Of a stretch of 64,000 bases of DNA, positions 7,315 to 29,616 are shown in pieces. Made by a program: the position numbers and the translations under genes. Numbering within the stretch: the stretch's first letter is position 1; each line of letters opens with the position of its first letter. Source of the stretch: Candidatus Zixiibacteriota bacterium (GTDB lineage: Bacteria; Zixibacteria; MSB-5A5; GN15; FEB-12); contig JAHOYZ010000023.1 in NCBI GenBank assembly GCA_019038695.1, forward strand, positions 62,001 through 126,000, in the 5' to 3' direction. The notes under the pieces were generated by a model. That model did no database searches and was not told where the DNA came from. It saw nothing but the letters and a program-made list of their open reading frames with translations.

Positions 7315-8604
7315 ATGGACGAGAACAACTGCAGTAGTAGCCGTATGCGATGGTTCGTGAAAATTGCCGCTCGGCTGGGCACCGGCCTGTGCATTATGCT
7401 TTTGGTCTGGAGTTGTGCTACCGTACCCGGACTCAAGGACGAAGAACCTGGCTCATTCATCCGTGTTCCATTTGTCAGGGTCCTTCTGGGGGAGAACGAG
7501 GAAGAAGCCGGCTTCTCGGCCCCGAAAGCTTTCGCCGTTGAATGCCTGACTGGTGGACAACAGGCTGTGTACTACTCCAGCCGTCCAGTGACAGTCCGGA
7601 GCCAGGGAAGTTTTCTGACGGTAGTGAGCAATACGGGGACAACGATCCAGGACAATGTCGATGAAGTGAACATCATCCCGCGCGGATCCGGCAACTACAT
7701 CAACCTCTACGGCAAACCATACCGGGGTATCACGCAAGTACTACCCTACGGACGAAATGTACAGCTTATCAATATCGTCTATATGGAAGATTATCTGCGA
7801 GGCGTTGTGCCACCCGAGATTGGCAAGCGAACGAAAAATGAGCTGGAGGCAGTTAAAGCCCAGGCGGTTGCCGCCCGTACTTACGCTCTTTCTCATTTGC
7901 AACAATATCCGTCCGAACGTTATGACATGAAAGCCTCTATCTATGATCAGGTATACGAAGGCACTAAGGTCGAGAACTCCGTCGCCAATCGAGCTATTGA
8001 TGAAACAGCAGGCAATGTGATTATGTATGAAGACAAGATGATTGAAGCCTACTACCACTCTACTTGTGGTGGTGCTACCGATGATATTGCTCATGTCTGG
8101 GATCGCAAGTCGATTCCGTATCTCAAAGCGGTTACCGATGATGGCGCTTGTTCATGGTCGAAGTACTACAACTGGAAAGAACACTTCACCGAAAAACAAC
8201 TACGCGGCAGGATAGAACAGTATATGGCCAGTGATCGAGGTCGGGATATGCGGATCGGAGAAATCAGAGATATCACAATTGGCGAGCGTACCCCCGGCAA
8301 TCGCATCGCAAAACTGACTATCCATACCGACAACGACAACTATCGTTTCTTCCGAGATCGCATTCGTTGGGTAATCGGACGTACTTCCAATCCGGACCTT
8401 ATCCTTCCCTCAGATCGATTCGATGTCATTATCACGCGTGACGGGGCGGGCAGTATCCAGAATATCACCTTCCAGGGACAGGGTTACGGCCACGGTGTTG
8501 GCATGTGTCAGTGTGGAGCGATTGGCAAAGCCCGACAGGGTGAATTGTTCGGTGATATCTTACGGCATTACTACCAGGGAACGGAAATCCGAAAACTGTA
8601 TTAG
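7315..8604 (+). CDS. SpoIID/LytB-domain lipoprotein, likely lytic transglycosylase
   Basis: This 429-residue protein has an N-terminal hydrophobic stretch ending LLVWSC, a plausible lipobox, so it is probably a lipoprotein. An N-terminal beta-rich region is followed by a SpoIID domain: YLRGVVPPEIG, ELEAVKAQAVAARTYAL, EAYYHSTCGGATDD and GQGYGHGVGMCQCGAIG. SpoIID proteins cleave denuded glycan strands and leave 1,6-anhydroMurNAc ends. The adjacent nagZ and anmK genes act on exactly this type of product. The start ATG has AAGGA six bases upstream. Assignment to the family is clear; the enzyme activity is inferred. Confidence 0.9.
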   Translation: MDENNCSSSRMRWFVKIAARLGTGLCIMLLVWSCATVPGLKDEEPGSFIRVPFVRVLLGENEEEAGFSAPKAFAVECLTGGQQAVYYSSRPVTVRSQGSFLTVVSNTGTTIQDNVDEVNIIPRGSGNYINLYGKPYRGITQVLPYGRNVQLINIVYMEDYLRGVVPPEIGKRTKNELEAVKAQAVAARTYALSHLQQYPSERYDMKASIYDQVYEGTKVENSVANRAIDETAGNVIMYEDKMIEAYYHSTCGGATDDIAHVWDRKSIPYLKAVTDDGACSWSKYYNWKEHFTEKQLRGRIEQYMASDRGRDMRIGEIRDITIGERTPGNRIAKLTIHTDNDNYRFFRDRIRWVIGRTSNPDLILPSDRFDVIITRDGAGSIQNITFQGQGYGHGVGMCQCGAIGKARQGELFGDILRHYYQGTEIRKLY

Positions 8605-8615
8605 AAGGCATACGG

Positions 8616-10085
8616 ATGCAGAAGTTTACGCTCAAATTAATCACGCCGGCTGTCCTTATGGTGTTTTGCGCCATGCTGGCCATGCCGACTGAGGCGGCGG
8701 ACTTCCGTTACACCCTGGGATTACACGGCGAAGTAGCTACTGTTACGGGTGGCGAAGGATACAAATTCCCTTTGCGACGTGCCTATGGCATGTCGCTTGG
8801 CTACGCTGTGTCAGAACATTGGGATCTTGATGTGAACCTGGGTTGGTATGATCTCTATGATGATTTGTCCGCCACCTCCAGTTTTTCTTTCAGAAATGAT
8901 AGCACCTTATCTTCACGTCGATTCCAGGCGACCCGCCTCGGGGCTGAAGTGAAACGGATTCTCTTACCACCCGGCGGGTTAGTCAATATCTCGCTTGGTC
9001 TGGGTGGAGGATTGCTGATTTGGAGGATGGCTGATCCTGGAGTTGACACCACTCTGGAAGTACCGGGATCACGAAATGAGACCGTGGATTATTCGTCAAC
9101 CGAAGTGTTTGTCACCGGTCTGGTGGGGACTGAGATTGCCCTGTCGAGTCATTTTGCGCTCAATCTCGATCTCCATGTGGATTATTTAACGGGAGCGGGA
9201 ACTGAATTTGCCGACGAAATCAGCTCGGCTCGTGACCGTTGGCTGGTCGGGTCATCTGTAGGATTGTCATTCTCATTTGGTCCCTCCGGTTTCCAACGTG
9301 GGTGGCCTTCGCAACGAGCCTGGTCCCTTGAGGCTCCCACAAATACTAAAAAGCCCAAAGCAGCTACTGATTCCGATGGCGACGGCATACCGGACTCCGA
9401 TGACCGTTGCCACGCTACGCCTACAGACGTTATTGTGGATCGCCACGGATGTCCGCTTGACAGTGATCGTGATGGGGTCTTCGACGGTCTGGATGATTGT
9501 GATGGTACCGATCCGAGAGCCCGTAATAAAGTCGATATTTTCGGCTGCCCACTGGACTCTGATTTTGATGGTGTACCGGATTACCGTGACGCATGTCCCC
9601 ACAACGCCGTCGGTGCTTTCGTTGATGAAGGTGGTTGTCCGCTCGACAGTGACGCCGATGGCATCCCCGACGGTCTGGATGACTGTCCCGGCACTCTTTA
9701 CGGGATCGATGTTGACCCGCATGGCTGTGTTGATCTGAGTGTTTTCGCCAAGCCGATGATCATGAACATCGACTATGCCCCCGGGTCCTTCGAGGTCGAT
9801 CCTAACAATATGGACCGGTTACGAGAGCTGGCCCGTATTCTGAATTTTGTACCAATAATAAAGCTGGAGATAAACGGCTACACCGACAACATTGGTCTGA
9901 CTTCGGCCAACCAGACTTTATCGGATAAAAGAGCCCGTCGGGTTCGGGATTACCTCGTCGCTATGGATGTAGCATCAGAACGAATCCGCGTCTTTGGTCG
10001 AGGAGAAACTAGTTTTGTGGCCTCAAATCAGACCGAGGCTGATCGCGCCAAGAACAGAAGAATTGAGATTATCTTCTACAGATGA
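8616..10085 (+). CDS. OmpA-family outer-membrane protein with TSP3 repeats
   Basis: The 489-residue protein has a signal peptide (cleavage expected after MPTEAA), an eight-strand-like beta barrel (about 27-235), and four thrombospondin type 3 calcium-binding repeats with DSDGDGIPDSDD-type units between about 250 and 370. The C-terminal OmpA peptidoglycan-binding domain contains INGYTDNIGL and LSDKRARRVRDYL. It should span the outer membrane and clamp peptidoglycan. It follows the SpoIID gene by 11 bases and so belongs to the cell-wall operon. Confidence 0.92.
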   Translation: MQKFTLKLITPAVLMVFCAMLAMPTEAADFRYTLGLHGEVATVTGGEGYKFPLRRAYGMSLGYAVSEHWDLDVNLGWYDLYDDLSATSSFSFRNDSTLSSRRFQATRLGAEVKRILLPPGGLVNISLGLGGGLLIWRMADPGVDTTLEVPGSRNETVDYSSTEVFVTGLVGTEIALSSHFALNLDLHVDYLTGAGTEFADEISSARDRWLVGSSVGLSFSFGPSGFQRGWPSQRAWSLEAPTNTKKPKAATDSDGDGIPDSDDRCHATPTDVIVDRHGCPLDSDRDGVFDGLDDCDGTDPRARNKVDIFGCPLDSDFDGVPDYRDACPHNAVGAFVDEGGCPLDSDADGIPDGLDDCPGTLYGIDVDPHGCVDLSVFAKPMIMNIDYAPGSFEVDPNNMDRLRELARILNFVPIIKLEINGYTDNIGLTSANQTLSDKRARRVRDYLVAMDVASERIRVFGRGETSFVASNQTEADRAKNRRIEIIFYR

Positions 10086-10100
10086 TCGGATACAAAGTCT

Positions 10101-10661
10101 ATGTACCGGAATTTCTACCAACGGCAAAATATTGAGAACCGCCGTCAGAATCTGTACGCTCTGGTAACGTACTTGCCTGAGGAATTGGATCGGATAATCA
10201 TCCCTCTGAGGGAGAAATTTGACCCACTTCACAATCAGATTGCCTCCCACATTACCATTGTATTTCCCTTTGAGTCCAGTTATCCGATTGAGGAACTGAC
10301 CGCGATTATCAAAAGAGAGCTCGAAAACGAACCGGAAATACCAATTGAACTTAACTCAATAATGGATTTCTATCCAAAATCACCTATCATATGCTGGAAA
10401 GTAGAGAGTAACGACCGTTTGATCTCACTCTACTACCGGCTGCACTCCCAGCTTGGTCTTGCGGTACCGTTCAAGGAGTTTCTTCCTCACGTTACTGTGG
10501 CTCAGGAAATCTCTCCCCATCGAGTAATGATGGTGAAAGAAAAAGTCATTCCTTACCTGCCATCCGAGAGTTTCCTGGCTGGGACAATGGACCTGATCAC
10601 CCCCCTGGATGATCAGAAATGGGTTTCAGTAAGGACTTTTCAGCTCCTCTCATCTGACTGA
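10101..10661 (+). CDS. 2H phosphoesterase / 2'-5' RNA ligase family protein
   Basis: The 186-residue protein has the two HxT motifs of the 2H phosphoesterase superfamily: SHITIVFPFES near residue 50 and PHVTVAQEIS near residue 133. These frame a bilobal fold of the LigT/2'-5' RNA ligase type. Members open or form 2',3'-cyclic or 2'-5' phosphodiester bonds in RNA and small nucleotides; the substrate here cannot be told. No signal peptide is visible. It starts 15 bases after the OmpA gene, probably as part of the same transcript. Confidence 0.8.
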   Translation: MYRNFYQRQNIENRRQNLYALVTYLPEELDRIIIPLREKFDPLHNQIASHITIVFPFESSYPIEELTAIIKRELENEPEIPIELNSIMDFYPKSPIICWKVESNDRLISLYYRLHSQLGLAVPFKEFLPHVTVAQEISPHRVMMVKEKVIPYLPSESFLAGTMDLITPLDDQKWVSVRTFQLLSSD

Positions 10662-22322: not shown

Positions 22323-22684
22323 GGCATTACCCGATTACAAATTCCTGTTAGCCGGAACCCCATTCCTGTGACCCGACCGAACGCTGACTTGCGATTGGCA
22401 TCCAATATATGTGCAAGCGTTCATATATGCAAACTTCAGTTGACGTGGGTAGTGTATCTTAAGTTGTGTAAATTGTTGAAATGGAATAATAACGCGTTTG
22501 ACTATGAGTCTTTAGAGCCAAACCAAAGGAGCCAAAACCGTGGTAAACTTGTGGTTTGCAGAGAAAGATTTACGTTATCGCTGGAGCGAAGTCAAGATGG
22601 AATTTGCGCTTGAGATTTGAAATCTCTATCTTGTAGTCATAAGGTGATAGTGTGAAGTGACAGAGGATACGAGGCAATTTGTCC
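22323..22684. other. Divergent intergenic region between exporter and kinase genes
   Basis: This 362-base spacer should carry promoters for the exporter operon (minus) and the kinase gene (plus). A GAGG at 22671-22674 serves the kinase start. There are TTGACG (near 22439) and TTGAAA (near 22477) hexamers but no well-spaced -10 partner. An open frame of 102 codons crosses the region; its composition and lack of a ribosome site make it unlikely to be a gene. Confidence 0.4.
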
Positions 22685-24949
22685 ATGGCGGCAGATGAAT
22701 CACATGATGATCGGACCCAGTCCTTCGTTGCCCTGACCAAAGGCACCGACGTTTCGCACTACAAGATAATTGAGAAGATCGGTGCCGGTGGTATGGGGGA
22801 AGTGTACTTGGCTGAGGATACTGAGCTTGATCGTAAGGTAGCACTTAAGTTCCTGTCGTCGCACCTCTGTCAGGATGAAGATTGCCGTGCCCGTTTTAAG
22901 CGAGAAGCACAAGCGGTAGCCAAGTTGAATCATCCGAACATCGTCACCATTTTTGAAGTCGCCGAGCATAATGGACGACCTTTCTTTGCGATGGAGCATG
23001 TCGAGGGGCAGTCTGTAAGAGAGTTCTCGTCAGATGAAGACCTGCCTATAGAGCGGATACTCGATCTGGGCATTCAGATATGTGAAGGATTGCAGGATGC
23101 ACACGAAAAAGGTGTCACCCACAGGGACATCAAGCTCTCAAACATCCTCATTGATTCACATGGCAGGGCAAAAATCGTCGATTTCGGTCTGGCTTCTGTC
23201 GTGGGGTCTGATCAGCTGACTAAGACAGGGTCAACTCTCGGAACCATTGGCTATATGTCCCCGGAGCAAGTTCAGGGCAAAGAGATCGATCATCGTTCCG
23301 ATCTTTTCTCTCTTGGGGTTGTCCTATATGAGCTAATCACCAAACAGAATCCATTCAAGCGAGACATTGAAGCCGCGACTCTCAAGGCCGTCTGCGATGA
23401 TATGGTACACCCGCTCGCGCGGTACCGTTCTGACATTCCTGAGGGCTTGCAGGGAGTAATCGAGAGAGTTCTTGAGAAGCACGTTGAGACCCGTTACCAG
23501 TCTGCTGCTGATTTGGCCAGCGACATTAAGCGCGTCTCCATCAAGGGGAGTAGTTCTACATCAGCAACAAAGCAGCACCAATCGATAGCAGTGCTGCCGT
23601 TTGTCGATATGAGTCCCGAGAAAGACCAGGAATACTTCTGCGACGGTATCGCCGAAGAGCTGATCAACGGTCTGACGCAACTTAGTGGACTGAAGGTAGC
23701 CGCCAGGACGTCGGCGTTCCAGTTCAAGCAACCCGATCGCGATATTCCAACCATAGGACGAGAATTGGGTGTCACAACCGTACTAGAAGGTAGTGTACGG
23801 AAGGCAGGAAACCGTCTTCGCATAACCGCACAATTAGTCAGTGTTAAAGACGGCTTCCATCTCTGGTCCGAAAAATACGATCGCACCCTTGACGATGTTT
23901 TTGCGATCCAGGACGAAATCTCATTGGCGATTGTGGATAAACTCAAAGTCAGACTCCTCGGGGAGGAGAGAAGTGCGCTCATAAAACGGCACACCGATGA
24001 CCAGGAAGCCCATAATCTCTATCTCAAGGGCCTGTATTTCTGGAATCGGCGGCTCGAAGGCGGTATGAAGCTGGCCATGGAACATTTTCACCAGGCGATC
24101 GAGAAAGATCCCGATTATGCGCTAGCCCATGTAGGTGTTGCCGATACGTACAACATCTCCGGTTTTTTTGGCTTTTTCCCGCCCAAAGAGGCCTTCCCGA
24201 GGGCATTTACCGCGGCAAAAAAGGCGTTGGAGATTGATGACAAGTTGGGGGAGGCCCACGCGTCGCTGGCTTGGTTCTACACTTTTCATGAGTGGGACTG
24301 GTCCGCGGCAGAAAGTGAATTCAAGCGCGCTATCGAGCTTAATCCAAACTACGCAACGGCTCATGAGTGGTACGGGGTCTATCTCATCGCTATGGGCAGG
24401 TTCGACGAAGCGATCGCTGAGACGGAGCGCGCTCGGGTTCTGGATCCGCTGTCGCTCATCATAAACGCGGTCGTAGGGGTTGCATACTATTTTGCTCGCC
24501 GGTACGAGGAGAGCATCAAGAACCAGCAGAAAACACTGGATTTGGATCCTAACTTCCTGCTGGCAAACACGTGGATCGTTCTAGCTTATGTTGCTAACGG
24601 TATGTGTGAGAGCGTGGTCAAGACCATACGTAGGGTCGAAGCGTCTGCTGTAGAACACGCTTACTCGCTCGGGTATTTCGGGTTTGCCTGCGGTGTGTGT
24701 GGTCAAGAAGAAGATGCCTTGAGAACACTTGACATTCTGAACGAGCTGGCGAAAAAGCGGTACGTTTCCCCAGTTCACCAAGCCAACGTCCTCCTGGGCC
24801 TTGGCAGGATGGATGAGGCGTTTGATTTGCTCGAGAAAGCCTACGTGGAGAGGAATCCCATGCTGGTGTTTATAGGAACAGGTCCCTTCTTCGATCCTAT
24901 CTTGTCGAACACGCGGTATGTGGAGTTGCTGAGGAAGATTGGTCTTTAA
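22685..24949 (+). CDS. Ser/Thr protein kinase with TolB-N-like and TPR domains
   Basis: This protein of about 754 residues has an N-terminal Hanks-type kinase domain (26-285): the glycine loop IGAGGMGEV, Lys55 in VALK, HRDIKLSN with Asp148, and DFG at 166-168. Next comes a TolB-N/FlgO-like domain (about 300-430): SIAVLPFVDMSPEKDQEYFC, VEGSV-like VLEGSVRKAG and HLWSEKYDRTLDDVFAIQDE. The C-terminal 300 residues are TPR repeats. No membrane helix is seen, so it is probably cytosolic. The start is the ATG at 22685 after GAGG; a TTG at 22679 is an alternative. The domain order is common in signalling proteins of environmental bacteria. Confidence 0.9.
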   Translation: MAADESHDDRTQSFVALTKGTDVSHYKIIEKIGAGGMGEVYLAEDTELDRKVALKFLSSHLCQDEDCRARFKREAQAVAKLNHPNIVTIFEVAEHNGRPFFAMEHVEGQSVREFSSDEDLPIERILDLGIQICEGLQDAHEKGVTHRDIKLSNILIDSHGRAKIVDFGLASVVGSDQLTKTGSTLGTIGYMSPEQVQGKEIDHRSDLFSLGVVLYELITKQNPFKRDIEAATLKAVCDDMVHPLARYRSDIPEGLQGVIERVLEKHVETRYQSAADLASDIKRVSIKGSSSTSATKQHQSIAVLPFVDMSPEKDQEYFCDGIAEELINGLTQLSGLKVAARTSAFQFKQPDRDIPTIGRELGVTTVLEGSVRKAGNRLRITAQLVSVKDGFHLWSEKYDRTLDDVFAIQDEISLAIVDKLKVRLLGEERSALIKRHTDDQEAHNLYLKGLYFWNRRLEGGMKLAMEHFHQAIEKDPDYALAHVGVADTYNISGFFGFFPPKEAFPRAFTAAKKALEIDDKLGEAHASLAWFYTFHEWDWSAAESEFKRAIELNPNYATAHEWYGVYLIAMGRFDEAIAETERARVLDPLSLIINAVVGVAYYFARRYEESIKNQQKTLDLDPNFLLANTWIVLAYVANGMCESVVKTIRRVEASAVEHAYSLGYFGFACGVCGQEEDALRTLDILNELAKKRYVSPVHQANVLLGLGRMDEAFDLLEKAYVERNPMLVFIGTGPFFDPILSNTRYVELLRKIGL

Positions 24950-24972
24950 CAACTTGTTGGTAGTTGACGTAG

Positions 24973-24997
24973 GGCAGAACCCCTTTGCGGTTCTGCC
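24973..24997 (+). terminator. Hairpin after the kinase gene
   Basis: A perfect 9-bp stem (GGCAGAACC / GGTTCTGCC) with a 7-base loop lies 24 bases after the kinase stop codon. There is no strong T-run after it, so it may be a Rho-type end or an mRNA-stabilising hairpin. Confidence 0.55.
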
Positions 24998-25045
24998 ACT
25001 CTCATGTAATTGTCAGAAAACCCGGCATCTGAAGGAAGTCCCGCT

Positions 25046-25083
25046 CAAAAGGAAACTCCCGAAGTAATTGGACTTCAGGAGCT
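25046..25083 (-). terminator. Terminator hairpin of repeat copy A
   Basis: On the minus strand a 10-bp stem (CTCCTGAAGT / ACTTCGGGAG) is followed by TTTCCTTTT. It is the same terminator as that after the true tRNA-fMet gene. Confidence 0.75.
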
Positions 25084-25179
25084 TAAATTTGGTAGCGGGG
25101 AGGAGATTTGAACCTCTGACAACCACACTATGTGTGCTTCGGGTTATGGGCCTGTTCAATTGTCCGAACAACAGCAAGC

Positions 25180-25234
25180 ACCAGACACTAACCTGTAGTA
25201 ATAGCAATTATTTACGGGAAACACAGTGTCTGGT
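25180..25234. repeat. Long imperfect palindrome in repeat copy A
   Basis: Ten-base arms ACCAGACACT and AGTGTCTGGT enclose an inner stem (CCCGTA/TACAGG region, with one mismatch) and a TGCT tip flanked by TAAT/ATTA. The equivalent palindrome in copy B is better paired. Confidence 0.75.
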
Positions 25235-25311
25235 ATTCCCTCTTATTATCTACTGTTCTTGCTCGTTCTGTTAGAAAACTGTTAGGAAGAGGTGTATGTC
25301 AAATGTTTCTC

Positions 25312-25341: not shown

Positions 25342-25356
25342 TATATATGATATATA
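25342..25356. promoter_or_regulatory. Palindrome over the padR start, possible autoregulatory operator
   Basis: TATATAT-G-ATATATA is a perfect 7-bp inverted repeat with a one-base centre, overlapping the predicted start site and start codon. PadR proteins often bind AT-rich palindromes in their own promoters. The region is AT-rich, so chance cannot be excluded. Confidence 0.45.
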
Positions 25357-25919
25357 AAAATACGGATAGCCAAATTACAAATGTTGAATTAACATTACTT
25401 CAAATCATTGGTGAGAAAGAAGAAATCTCTGGTTATGAAATCAATCAAATTGTAATTGAAAGATGTTATAGAAATTGGGCAGATATTGGTACCACTTCAA
25501 TTTATAAAGGACTTGTAAAATTAGAAAATAAACATCTTGTTACTTCGATCCTGAAAAAAAATAAAACTGGAAAAGGACCGGTACCTCGATTATTTAAACT
25601 AAATAAAAGAGGAAACAAGACATTAAAAGATGAAATATTATTTGCATTATCAAATACAAATGAACGAGATTATCGCTTTGATCTTGGTCTTGCCGGATTA
25701 TGTTTTGTCGATTTTAAGGATGCTATATTCGCGCTTGGAAATCGTAAAACAGAGTTAATTAAGAGGCAGGTATTTATTAAAGAAAAATTAAAGAATGAGG
25801 GGACTATGAATCTGCCGTTCTCTGCTATTTTGGTGTTTAAGCACCCATTATCTCTTATTAAAAACGAAATACGATTCATCGATTCTATTATTACACAACT
25901 AGAACAAAAAATGAAATAA
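25347..25919 (+). CDS. PadR-family transcriptional regulator
   Basis: The 190-residue protein has the PadR winged-helix core near its N-terminus: ELTLLQIIGEKEEISGYEINQIV, then WADIGTTSIYKGLVKLENKHLV and a basic wing (KTGKGPVPRLFKLNKRG). A C-terminal helical dimerisation region follows (IKRQVFIKEKLKNEG, FIDSIITQLEQKM). PadR proteins repress genes for phenolic acids, quinones or drugs. Base composition is markedly AT-rich with A/T-ending codons, unlike the surrounding genes, which suggests transfer. It lies between repeat copies A and B and precedes a NAD(P)H oxidoreductase gene it may control. Confidence 0.82.
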   Translation: MIYKNTDSQITNVELTLLQIIGEKEEISGYEINQIVIERCYRNWADIGTTSIYKGLVKLENKHLVTSILKKNKTGKGPVPRLFKLNKRGNKTLKDEILFALSNTNERDYRFDLGLAGLCFVDFKDAIFALGNRKTELIKRQVFIKEKLKNEGTMNLPFSAILVFKHPLSLIKNEIRFIDSIITQLEQKMK

Positions 25920-26104: not shown

Positions 26105-26683
26105 ATGAAGAAAACACTCGTCATACTCGGGCATCCTTCAAGCGAGAGCTTTTCTGCATGTCTGGCAGATAAATATTGTGAGGGAGCCAAAGATTCCGGG
26201 AATGAAATAAAAAGAATTAATGTTGGCGAACTTGACTTTGCCCCATTTCTCAAAAATGGATATTCAAAAGAGCAATATATTGAGCCAGATATCTTAAAGT
26301 CTCAAGAGCAAATAAAATGGGCTAATCATTTGGTCTTCATTTATCCTACATGGTGGGCAACTCCAACTGCTTTGCTAAAAGCATTTATAGAAAGAACCAT
26401 GCTTCCCGGTTTTGCGTATAAATTTAAGAAAAGCAAACATGTTGTTGCCTGGGACAAATTACTTAAGGGGAAATCCGCTAGAATTATAAGTACAATGGAT
26501 ACTCCCCCTATTATCTATAAGTGGATTGTAGGCGATCCGGGGTATAAAATGATGAAAGACATGTTTCACTTTTGTGGAATAAAACCTGTATCGAAAACAT
26601 ATTTTGGCTCTGTAAAAATGTCATCTGAAGCAACAAGACGAAAATGGCTAAGTAAGTGTCTCAATATTGGGCGAAATGATTAG
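26105..26683 (+). CDS. NAD(P)H-dependent (quinone) oxidoreductase, flavodoxin fold
   Basis: The 192-residue protein belongs to the flavodoxin-2 / NQO-MdaB-KefF family. It has KTLVILGHPSSESFSACLAD for FMN or FAD phosphate binding, then LVFIYPTWWATPTALLKAFIERTMLPGFAY, the family's flavin-site signature, and RIISTMDTPP further on. It would reduce quinones or other electrophiles with NAD(P)H in the cytosol. It starts at an ATG with AAAGGA upstream. Codon use is AT-rich like the neighbouring padR-like gene, so the two probably arrived together. It ends shortly before repeat copy B. Confidence 0.88.
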   Translation: MKKTLVILGHPSSESFSACLADKYCEGAKDSGNEIKRINVGELDFAPFLKNGYSKEQYIEPDILKSQEQIKWANHLVFIYPTWWATPTALLKAFIERTMLPGFAYKFKKSKHVVAWDKLLKGKSARIISTMDTPPIIYKWIVGDPGYKMMKDMFHFCGIKPVSKTYFGSVKMSSEATRRKWLSKCLNIGRND

Positions 26684-26813: not shown

Positions 26814-26909
26814 GATAATTTGGTGGCGGGGAGAGGATTTGATCCTCTGATAACCACACTATGTGTGCTTCGGGTTATGAGCCTGTACAGAAATCCAAAC
26901 AGTAGAAAG

Positions 26910-26966
26910 CACCAGACACTATCCCGTAGTAATAGCAATTACGTACGGGAAACACAGTGTCTGGTG
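26910..26966. repeat. Long palindrome in repeat copy B
   Basis: Eleven-base arms CACCAGACACT / AGTGTCTGGTG enclose CCCGTA/TACGGG and GTAAT/ATTAC stems with a TGCT tip. This makes a nearly continuous hairpin of about 22 pairs with one small internal loop and a single bulge. Confidence 0.8.
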
Positions 26967-27116
26967 TTTCTTCTTATTGCCCGGTGTTCTTGCTCGTTTT
27001 GTTAGAAAGCTGTTAGAAAGAGGTGTATGTTAAATATCATATAATAGACTTGCGTTATCCATATTCAAGTCGTACTTTATATTTTGAGTGAGAGTTACAA
27101 TCTCAACCCGTTGATT

Positions 27117-29417
27117 ATGGACATAGAATTGACTGATCCCAAAGATAATCCAGACAAGAAACAATCAGATCAGGAATTGGATTCTCACATTGACGATGTG
27201 ACCAAAACCGTTGCTTCCTCTCTTATGAGTGACAAACTGGATCCGCATCATCCAAAGAAAATCGGTCAGTATATCATAAGACGCGTCATTGCTTCTGGTG
27301 GCATGGGTACTGTTTTTGAAGCATTACAGGAAAACCCTCGTCGGCCAGTGGCGATCAAAGTGATTAAGGGGGGCGATGCATCTGAGACAGCTGTCAGCCG
27401 TCTAGAGTATGAAGCTCAGATGCTGGCGAGACTGCGCCATCCGGGAATAGCTGAGATCTACGAAGCTGGCACCTACGATGATCACGGTACCGAGGTACCG
27501 TATTTTGCGATGGAGTACATTCCCAACGCCAGGACGATAACAGAATACGCTAAACTGAAGAAACTTTCGGTGGATGAGCGGCTCGAATTATTCCTGCAGG
27601 TGTGTGACGCAGTGAATTCTGGTCACCAGAAGGGAGTGGTGCATCGTGACCTGAAGCCAGATAACATCCTAGTAGATTCTCATAATAGAATCCGGGTCAT
27701 TGACTTTGGTCTGGCTCGAGCAACAGATTCAGACTTACGTCAGACAAATGTGCAGACTGAGGTGGGACAGATAATTGGATCACTTCAGTATATGAGTCCG
27801 GAACAATTTGAGGCTGATTCAAGTGATCTTGATACGAGGAGTGATGTTTATTCCCTCGGCGTTGTCCTTCATGAATTATTGTCGGGGACCCTGCCCTATG
27901 ATTTGAAGGCCAAAAAGGTGTATGAAATTGCCAGCATTGTTCGGGAAAAAGCGCCGAATGGCTTGAACAAGAGTGGCGTAAAGGTAGCCGCCGAAGTCGA
28001 CATCATCTTGCAAAAGTGCTTGAGAAAAGAACGGGAAATGCGTTACCAGACAGCCTACGGGTTACATCAAGACATTAGCAGGTATCTATCAGGAGATGCT
28101 ATCGTCGCTCGTTCGCCGAGTCTGGCCTACCAGATGAGAGTCTTCACGCGCAAAAACAAGTTGCTGGTAGGATCGTTTGCTTCGGCCTTGGTGTTGTTAA
28201 TCGCCGGTTCAATTGTGTCCACCACTCTTCTCGTTCGGGTATCTGAGGAATCGGAAAAAGCAAAGAGAGCCAATGGATTCTTAACCAATCTATTTGAAAC
28301 TGCAGTCCCATACGGATATGGTAAGCCGGTTCCTATAAGTCGTATGTTGGACGAGGCATCAAAGTCACTTGACGGTGCTTTCCCTGACAATCCTGAAGTC
28401 GAATCAGATATAAGTCACTCTCTTGGTACAGGCTACTCGTGGTGTGAAAAATACAGTGAGGCTCGTGAGCACCTGAATCTCGCTCTATCGTTAAGGAAAG
28501 AGACGCTGGGTGAAAGGCATCCCAAAACTAGAGAAACGCTCTTACAACTGAGATTGCTAAACAGTGTGACAGGGGGACATAAGAATGACCTTGCTGTCTG
28601 CAAAGAGATCTGCAGGATAGATATCGCTAATTATGGGGTTAAGAGTGTAAACACTCTCAATTCCAAGTTGAGTTTAGCTTATGGCATGGAGAGAGCTGGT
28701 AGGATTTCTGAAGCATTGAAAGTGGTGCAAGACACACGGGCGCTGTACCTCAGTGATCATTCAGATAATTTGGAATTAGGGAATGAAATCGATCGAGACC
28801 TGTCATGGTTCTTACTCCAAAGCGGGAGCTTTGCCGAGGCTGAAGAGGTAGCGCGAACGGCTTTGGAATTTGCAAGAACAAGAATTGAGGATGGTTGGCC
28901 CACCGAAAGCAGCAAAAGCCATCTGGCTGCGGCCTTAATAGCCCAGGGAAAACTTGCTGAAGCTACCGAGTTGTATGGAGATTTCCCCACCTATCCAACC
29001 TTGGATAAGGAATATGATATTCAAGGAAACCTGGACCCTGATAAGAGTGACGTTCTGCTGATAATGTTCTGGGAGGCGTGGTGTCCTTTCTGTGATGCAA
29101 GAGTAGGAAAGCTGGAGAACCTGTATAGACAGTATCACAATTATGGAATTGACATGGTTGGAGTAACACAGATCACACAGACAAGTACCAGAGAAAAATG
29201 CGAAGAGTTTATTAGAAGGAATAGTATTACTTTCCCAATGATTAAAGAGAGTGGAAAAGCCTACAAGCATTTCAATATTACCGGATGGCCTAATGTAAGA
29301 TTGATTTACAAAGGAAGACTAATCTGGGAACAAAAAGTCGAATCGTCCCAACTGATCTCCAGGCATATGCTTGAAGGGATAGTCAAGTCTCAGCAATCCT
29401 CTGTTATCCCCAATTAA
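27117..29417 (+). CDS. Receptor Ser/Thr kinase fused to TPR and thioredoxin-like domains
   Basis: This protein of about 766 residues has an acidic N-terminus and then a Hanks-type kinase (51-320): IASGGMGTV, Lys81 in VAIK, HRDLKPDN with Asp178, and DFG at 196-198. One membrane helix (about 349-373) follows, then a helical TPR-like region (about 380-630). The C-terminal TlpA/thioredoxin-like domain (from 640) has CPFC at 656-659 and a cis-Pro candidate at 725 (TGWPNVRL). With the kinase in the cytosol, the CPFC domain would lie outside the inner membrane. The start is the ATG at 27117; a TTG at 27084 is possible. It lies between repeat copy B and tRNA-fMet. Confidence 0.88.
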   Translation: MDIELTDPKDNPDKKQSDQELDSHIDDVTKTVASSLMSDKLDPHHPKKIGQYIIRRVIASGGMGTVFEALQENPRRPVAIKVIKGGDASETAVSRLEYEAQMLARLRHPGIAEIYEAGTYDDHGTEVPYFAMEYIPNARTITEYAKLKKLSVDERLELFLQVCDAVNSGHQKGVVHRDLKPDNILVDSHNRIRVIDFGLARATDSDLRQTNVQTEVGQIIGSLQYMSPEQFEADSSDLDTRSDVYSLGVVLHELLSGTLPYDLKAKKVYEIASIVREKAPNGLNKSGVKVAAEVDIILQKCLRKEREMRYQTAYGLHQDISRYLSGDAIVARSPSLAYQMRVFTRKNKLLVGSFASALVLLIAGSIVSTTLLVRVSEESEKAKRANGFLTNLFETAVPYGYGKPVPISRMLDEASKSLDGAFPDNPEVESDISHSLGTGYSWCEKYSEAREHLNLALSLRKETLGERHPKTRETLLQLRLLNSVTGGHKNDLAVCKEICRIDIANYGVKSVNTLNSKLSLAYGMERAGRISEALKVVQDTRALYLSDHSDNLELGNEIDRDLSWFLLQSGSFAEAEEVARTALEFARTRIEDGWPTESSKSHLAAALIAQGKLAEATELYGDFPTYPTLDKEYDIQGNLDPDKSDVLLIMFWEAWCPFCDARVGKLENLYRQYHNYGIDMVGVTQITQTSTREKCEEFIRRNSITFPMIKESGKAYKHFNITGWPNVRLIYKGRLIWEQKVESSQLISRHMLEGIVKSQQSSVIPN

Positions 29418-29495
29418 GTGATGCGAACCCTATCCATCTTCTTTTTCGAGAACCCAGTTATGATAAGTTTTGTTAGAAAGCTAATTATTCATGGA

Positions 29496-29539: not shown

Positions 29540-29616
<77 letters not shown>

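Follow-up and report, generated by a model that had tools for sequence, protein, structure and literature searches.

The long palindrome at positions 26910-26966 of the window (the whole stretch of 64,000 nucleotides that was analysed) is almost certainly part of the attachment (att) site of a group of integrative elements. These elements would insert in the anticodon arm of the initiator tRNA gene of uncultured Zixibacteria, and the palindrome would be a fixed piece of the P arm of their attP. Its position and fixed spacing, the tandem arrays, the integrase and Xis-like gene of intact relatives and the lack of an integrase in the units of the window can be read from the DNA itself. The two arms of the palindrome probably act as duplex DNA sites for accessory proteins that fold the att arm, where both the binding proteins and the activity of the site are what we infer. 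An odd palindrome can in this way be accounted for as a piece of the attachment site of mobile islands.

The palindrome and the tRNA-derived repeats

The initial annotation described a palindrome of about 22 pairs common to two repeat copies, A and B. In copy B (26910-26966) the pairing is present as described, with 22 pairs formed by the outer arms CACCAGACACT/AGTGTCTGGTG and by CCCGTA/TACGGG and GTAAT/ATTAC. The tip, given as TGCT, reads so on the minus strand, and AGCA on the plus strand. Folded as single-stranded DNA, positions 26895-26983 reach -22.1 kcal/mol on the plus strand and -24.7 kcal/mol on the minus strand (z = -8.05 and -8.29), and none of 200 shuffles was equally stable. The palindrome of copy A (25179-25235) is weaker, since the outermost arm pair is gone (CACC.../...GGTA) and the inner stem is poorer; its fold has a z of -2.53, with four of 200 shuffles equally stable. 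The description therefore holds in full for copy B and in reduced form for copy A. Both belong to a 219-nt direct repeat (A, 25086-25304; B, 26817-27035) with 86% identity, and three more copies of this repeat are found on contig C12 of the same genome.

The segment adjoining the palindrome, noted earlier as tRNA-like, is indeed the 3' half of a tRNA-Met(CAT) gene, whose intact copy on the minus strand (29540-29616) is the sole tRNA found by ARAGORN in the window. We take it to be of the initiator type from its GGGCTCATAACCC anticodon arm. Each repeat copy starts with the tRNA 3' half, from the anticodon arm to CCA, followed by a conserved stretch of about 150 nt which contains the palindrome and two direct repeats (on the plus strand, TGTTAGAAA twice). 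Both copies are placed downstream of the tRNA 3' end in identical orientation. The tRNA is split as by an insertion, with a regenerated gene at one end and a displaced 3' fragment at the other, and tandem copies of a tRNA 3' half are the usual mark of site-specific integration in a tRNA gene with tandem accretion. The features of the array, read in this way, are the following.

24968-25108, plus strand: integrase relic, last ~47 codons, in overlap with the tRNA 3' half displaced at copy A (residues 390-436 matched at 55% identity; 49% and one stop in a second search)
25090-25152, minus strand: displaced tRNA 3' half of copy A, with the same 16-nt insertion as copy B
25137-25152, minus strand: core of copy A, one mismatch (sequence)
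25179-25235, no strand: palindrome of copy A, weaker pairing (pairing, fold)
25269-25288, minus strand: two arm-type repeats in direct orientation in the P arm of copy A, with one mismatch, spaced as in copy B
25347-25919, plus strand: cargo of unit A, PadR-like regulator (domain scan of the ORF)
26105-26683, plus strand: cargo of unit A, flavodoxin-fold oxidoreductase (domain scan of the ORF)
26821-26883, minus strand: displaced tRNA 3' half, copy B; variable loop with 16 nt inserted (sequence)
26868-26883, minus strand: core of copy B, GGCTCATAACCCGAAG, lying in the anticodon arm of the tRNA (sequence)
26910-26966, no strand: palindrome of copy B, presumably belonging to the P arm of the att site; outer arms 26910-26920 and 26956-26966, inner stem between them (pairing, fold, alignment)
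27000-27019, minus strand: TTTCTAACA twice in direct orientation, the arm-type repeats in the P arm of copy B; on the tRNA strand they start 136 nt ahead of the core start
27084-29417, plus strand: cargo of unit B, Ser/Thr kinase-TPR-thioredoxin-like protein (domain scan of the ORF)
29471-29479, minus strand: single arm-type repeat, P' side of unit B (a pair in intact relatives, beginning 117 nt from the core start)
29540-29616, minus strand: intact tRNA-Met(CAT) gene, presumably of initiator type, target and anchor of the array (ARAGORN, Rfam)
29571-29586, minus strand: core within the intact tRNA-Met gene (sequence)

Measured from core to core, unit A has 1731 bp and unit B 2703 bp. No integrase-like stretch was found in either unit, and the genome of the window (~96% complete) contained no close relative of the integrase, the best match having 31% identity. 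The att sites are kept and the integrase and transfer genes are lost; the three ORFs scanned in the units are cargo, to which the relic of the integrase tail is added. The units (1.7 and 2.7 kb) thus look like CIMEs (cis-mobilizable elements), and the junctions A and B would be of the attR type, now holding the P arm.

The 16-nt variable-loop insertion of both displaced tRNA halves is itself partly palindromic (AACCACACTATGTGTG). Similar inserts occur at loci L043, L027 and L031, and other short palindromes at L024 and L046.

Attachment sites and integrases of the relatives

Copies of the repeat were collected by blastn (101 rows); 20 partial rows were left out and the remaining 81 were reduced to 53 distinct aligned copies. 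Using a 195-nt query, matches were obtained in 84 of 98 genomes at E<=0.001, many of them to the tRNA half alone, and those spanning the palindrome (query 90-135) occurred in at least 35 of the 98, the genome of the window included. The arm-repeat pattern was found at 19 loci on genome contigs, 16 of them from Candidatus Zixiibacteriota, two from FCB group bacterium and one from an entry named only bacterium. A first exact pattern gave no match on genome contigs, the exact arm-repeat pattern gave none on viral contigs, and the 219-nt repeat had no match among plasmids.

On the tRNA strand, the order of sites in the window copies is the TTTCTAACA pair, 33 nt, the palindrome, 26 nt, the core and the displaced tRNA 3' half. 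The P side is of nearly constant length, with 136 nt from the start of the arm repeats to the start of the core in 24 of 27 pairs, 137 nt in one and 115 nt in two. Both 115-nt cases belong to L077 and are a net 21 bp shorter, which corresponds to two helical turns, 19 of these being lost in one block after a replaced right arm. On the P' side of intact elements the 3' end of the integrase gene contains a pair TTTCTAACA-NN-TTTCTAACA. Its distance from the core, start to start, is 117 nt for 6 of 11 pairs (116, 118, 142 and, twice, 133 nt for the others) and at six of seven further loci (127 nt at the seventh). These repeats beside the tRNA are the same as those at the palindrome end, and in intact relatives arm-type repeats flank the core on both sides. 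Eight tRNA-Met loci were compared for this side: the exact pair is present in L068, L072, L076 and L080, a variant in L081, one repeat in the window (unit B; none was matched for unit A) and none in L071 and L074. In the stretches of intact elements a search for a second copy of the palindrome found single arms only, with no arm pair.

Of 95 genomes, 11 have a relative of the integrase at E<=1e-60, partial in three; the genome of the window is not one of them. All 11 genes abut the tRNA, ten at tRNA 3' halves found with the 195-nt query and the eleventh in genome G059. Palindrome-bearing sites are commoner than the integrase, and among the at least 35 genomes that have them, six (G004, G010, G030, G035, G047 and G059) belong to this set of 11. 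The tRNA-side integrases of L072, L076 and L082 have 428-436 aa, and that of L072 contains the domains Phage_integrase and Phage_int_SAM_3. Its related solved structures are integrase and Xer chains, presumably with chains of lambda Int among them (E 5e-4). No arm-binding domain of Pfam was called in the integrase; two N-terminal fragments of 91 aa had none with the threshold relaxed to E 10. Among phage records, 2547 had a match to the integrase; eight of these had 27-32% identity, and 21 had places of 60-80% identity. A gene for an HTH_17 protein of 61-72 aa is found directly upstream of int in all three complete integrases examined, and a small HTH_17 protein is the usual look of an excisionase. 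L072 and L076 contain genes for a TrwB/TraG-like coupling protein and for a Replic_Relax protein, as in an IME, and the intact relatives look like mobilizable elements (IMEs).

More distant integrases (60-64% identity) are found at the same tRNA in L090, L091, L094 and L095 (genomes G089, G083, G061 and G015). In the stretches taken from G083 and G089, no displaced tRNA half with a core was found at the far end of these divergent elements.

This organisation suggests how the palindrome may be used. The catalytic part of the tyrosine integrase would probably sit on the core and its N-terminal part on the TTTCTAACA repeats, and the DNA between them would have to fold back to bridge both. The palindrome lies in this gap and offers two inverted sites of ~11 bp around a middle of 35 bp, which are most likely sites for Xis and/or HU/IHF-type proteins. 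The genome of the window encodes two proteins of the HU/IHF family. In phage lambda, IHF and Xis sites are likewise described between the core and the arm sites (PMC4880445), and use of the anticodon loop as the overlap is described as standard (PMC8371274).

The middle contains a bend-type motif (GCAANNNNTTA; TAGCAANNACTTA). It is within one mismatch of the IHF consensus WATCAANNNNTTR in 38 of the 53 copies, which are related and so do not count as independent matches; at least one mismatch is present in 52 of the 53, and the first two N positions are the most variable.

The earlier proposal of a recognition hairpin for a recombinase or transposase stands in so far as the palindrome lies in a recombinase site. 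An integron attC-like or IS200/IS605-type hairpin, itself the substrate of recombination or transposition, would agree with an array in which repeated hairpins separate small units of cargo, as in integrons. The common core, however, belongs to the tRNA and is 26 nt away from the palindrome, and the nearby GTT-type boxes are direct and not inverted repeats. In intact relatives the enzyme is a phage-type tyrosine integrase, with sites made of a core and arm repeats; it carries Phage_int_SAM_3, and three integrases scored 66-70 bits against the integron-integrase model, far below the cut-off of 265. Genes for Y1 transposases are present in all nine genomes checked and none is inside an array stretch. 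A hairpin of either kind is thus extremely improbable: neither inverted core boxes with the crossover and an integron integrase, nor, in the array stretches of the nine genomes, a Y1 match was found.

Twenty-two core-to-core intervals were derived by hand. A complete integrase of the family is present in two of them (G030 and G004; ~26.7 kb) and a truncated one in G035 (residues 236-436), and in the remaining intervals only integrase tails or pieces, or nothing, were detected. The G004 interval has in addition a second, distant integrase gene. At the other extreme, L078 (3123-3376) holds a unit of 253 bp made of two att arms only, with one repeat pair serving both, a MITE-like miniature.

On the near side of the C12 array (L048, 14271-14317; also in L010) the core and the tRNA-Met 3' half occur without the tRNA 5' half and near a tRNA-Ser gene, which looks like integration at a secondary site. 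In L062, L033, L032 and L034 the core has no recognisable tRNA 3' half alongside; these may be secondary-site insertions or products of decay. For orthologous empty sites, the tRNA neighbour NhaP was matched in 7 of the 13 sequences searched, the window included; L071, L074 and L082 have the tRNA and gave no NhaP match at 1e-15, and the far-side neighbours of the tRNA in G008 had no match elsewhere among the sequences searched.

Conservation of the palindrome

Random decay of the palindrome in further copies had been named as the outcome that would speak against it. Overall this is not what the alignment contains, since both 10-nt arms are kept with no more than one mismatch each in 43 of the 53 copies, the left alone in four, the right alone in four and neither in two. 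It had also been suggested to look for substitutions that keep the pairing, and in the outer stem they mostly do not: the outer ten pairs have 62 one-sided changes (19 left, 43 right) and two compensated ones. If a single strand were folded, whether of RNA or DNA, G-T on that strand would be expected to prevail. The one-sided changes comprise 14 G-T, 19 A-C and 29 others, with no strand bias. Because substitutions are mostly unpaired and have no G-T preference, a folded single strand or an RNA, both raised by the initial annotation, is not favoured for the outer stem.

The best conserved parts are the left arm with 1.75 bits, the arm repeats with 1.59 and the right arm with 1.57. In five copies the left arm is kept although a compact hairpin rich in GC (for example CCGGCCCCTGCCGG) has taken the place of the right one. 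The converse also occurs: four of the 53 copies retain the right arm while the left has two or three mismatches, and in L042 and L081:6872 the right arm is kept and the left is gone. The right arm is thus also kept without the left, so the left arm is not special there. One-sided changes dominate without strand bias and the left arm survives replacement of the right; it thus seems to be the DNA sequence of the arms that is conserved.

Paired replacement is more frequent in the inner stem, where the stems vary by sequence class and in many cases pair, and this hints at selection on pairing. The named structure as a whole has 66 two-sided cells versus 31.6 in shuffles and a covariation score of 0.167 versus 0.122 (none of 500 as high), an excess inflated by relatedness and by the sequence classes, and it beats all slid versions of itself. 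A z below -2 was obtained for 40 of the 53 copies. RNAalifold on all 53 rows returned no pairs because the sequence classes are out of register.

These data bear on three further readings. The palindrome could be a folded single-strand oriT or rolling-circle origin for a relaxase-like protein, with the integrase-less units moving in trans. The Replic_Relax and TrwB/TraG-like proteins of two intact elements, the conserved tip, the inner stems that vary by class yet often pair and the excess of the whole structure above its controls are all in agreement with such an origin. Nevertheless the outer-stem mismatches are without strand preference and only two changes are compensated, 13 of the 53 copies fold no better than z = -2, and the palindrome is located in the P arm of the integrase and not beside the relaxase gene, so that we consider this distinctly unlikely. 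A more speculative variant, to which we give little credence, is that the ~150-nt end serves the integrase and also folds as a single strand for the relaxase, the cargo-only units being a library of mobilizable cassettes. If this were true, an integron-like gene store would exist behind the initiator tRNA, built on a lambda-type site.

A structural domain of a non-coding RNA ending in a tRNA-like part is very improbable. On the minus strand the tRNA 3' half does follow the hairpin; however, this half is accounted for by integration in the tRNA gene, Rfam at the gathering score matches the intact tRNA only, the outer stem has no excess of G-T over A-C, and, relative to the hairpin, cargo genes occur in both orientations. 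A leader or riboswitch was dropped on the same ground of cargo orientation.

The main rival, which we regard as rather unlikely, is a bi-directional intrinsic terminator that insulates stacked elements or shields the att site against transcription. Flanking the stem are A-rich and T-rich ends, and at least five T in the eight bases after the stem are present on the plus strand in 45 of the 53 copies and on the minus strand in 29 (at least six T: 31 versus 10). Moreover, the GC-rich replacement hairpin runs into the same T-rich tail in three divergent copies, whereas the two of L077 have only TTTT. Yet the T-tract positions drift to C, the left arm sequence is kept when its partner is lost, and the fixed spacing to the core would not be needed by a terminator. 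The stem, with its 35-nt middle, is also much longer than that of an ordinary terminator, and a terminator scanner, whose loop limit is 8, gave no call on the palindrome. Conservation of the arms as duplex sites in the att arm remains the reading that we prefer.

Related systems and cargo

The CIMEs and tandem accretion described at tRNA genes for ICESt1-related elements (PMC5704250) are like the window in having att-flanked units that lack genes for integrase and transfer, form a stack at one end of the target gene and apparently derive from integrase-bearing elements. In the array described here the units are many and small, share one conserved end of ~150 nt with a long palindrome, belong to another phylum and are known from sequence. 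The ssrA islands of Dehalococcoides (PMC3146451) are likewise tandem, with repeats of an RNA-gene 3' end and an integration module in some only, but they use a serine recombinase and a tmRNA target in place of a tyrosine integrase and an initiator tRNA. The words hairpin and inverted repeat are absent from the main text of that report. The strand-biased elements of PMC9345347 are described with 19-bp inverted core motifs at their ends, by which they differ from the Zixibacteria elements.

The closest model for the site itself is the attP of phage lambda (PMC4880445), described as a core with integrase arm-type sites, accessory bending sites between them, and Xis. In the elements analysed here both arms have the same pair of direct repeats and the gap of one arm is a long palindrome, which separates them from the lambda site as described there (PMC4880445). 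If the palindrome organises the integrase complex, the arm of an att site would here be filled otherwise than in lambda. A palindrome of such length is not known as a feature of lambda attP, which counts against our reading.

In titles and abstract openings of the literature on integrative elements or genomic islands of Zixibacteria and on initiator-tRNA islands, no description of these elements was found. Tycheposons are tRNA-associated elements with tyrosine recombinases and cargo, and their likeness to the Zixibacteria elements is one of description. The map of core, arm repeats and palindrome allows such islands to be found in assemblies, and it brings to light stacks of small integrase-less cargo units at an essential tRNA gene.

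Large kinase-TPR proteins are recurrent beside att copies, being found in the window at 22679-24949 and 27084-29417 and in L080 at 7856-10120. A relative of the unit B protein, with 56% identity, is encoded close to an att copy in a genome from another family of the order.
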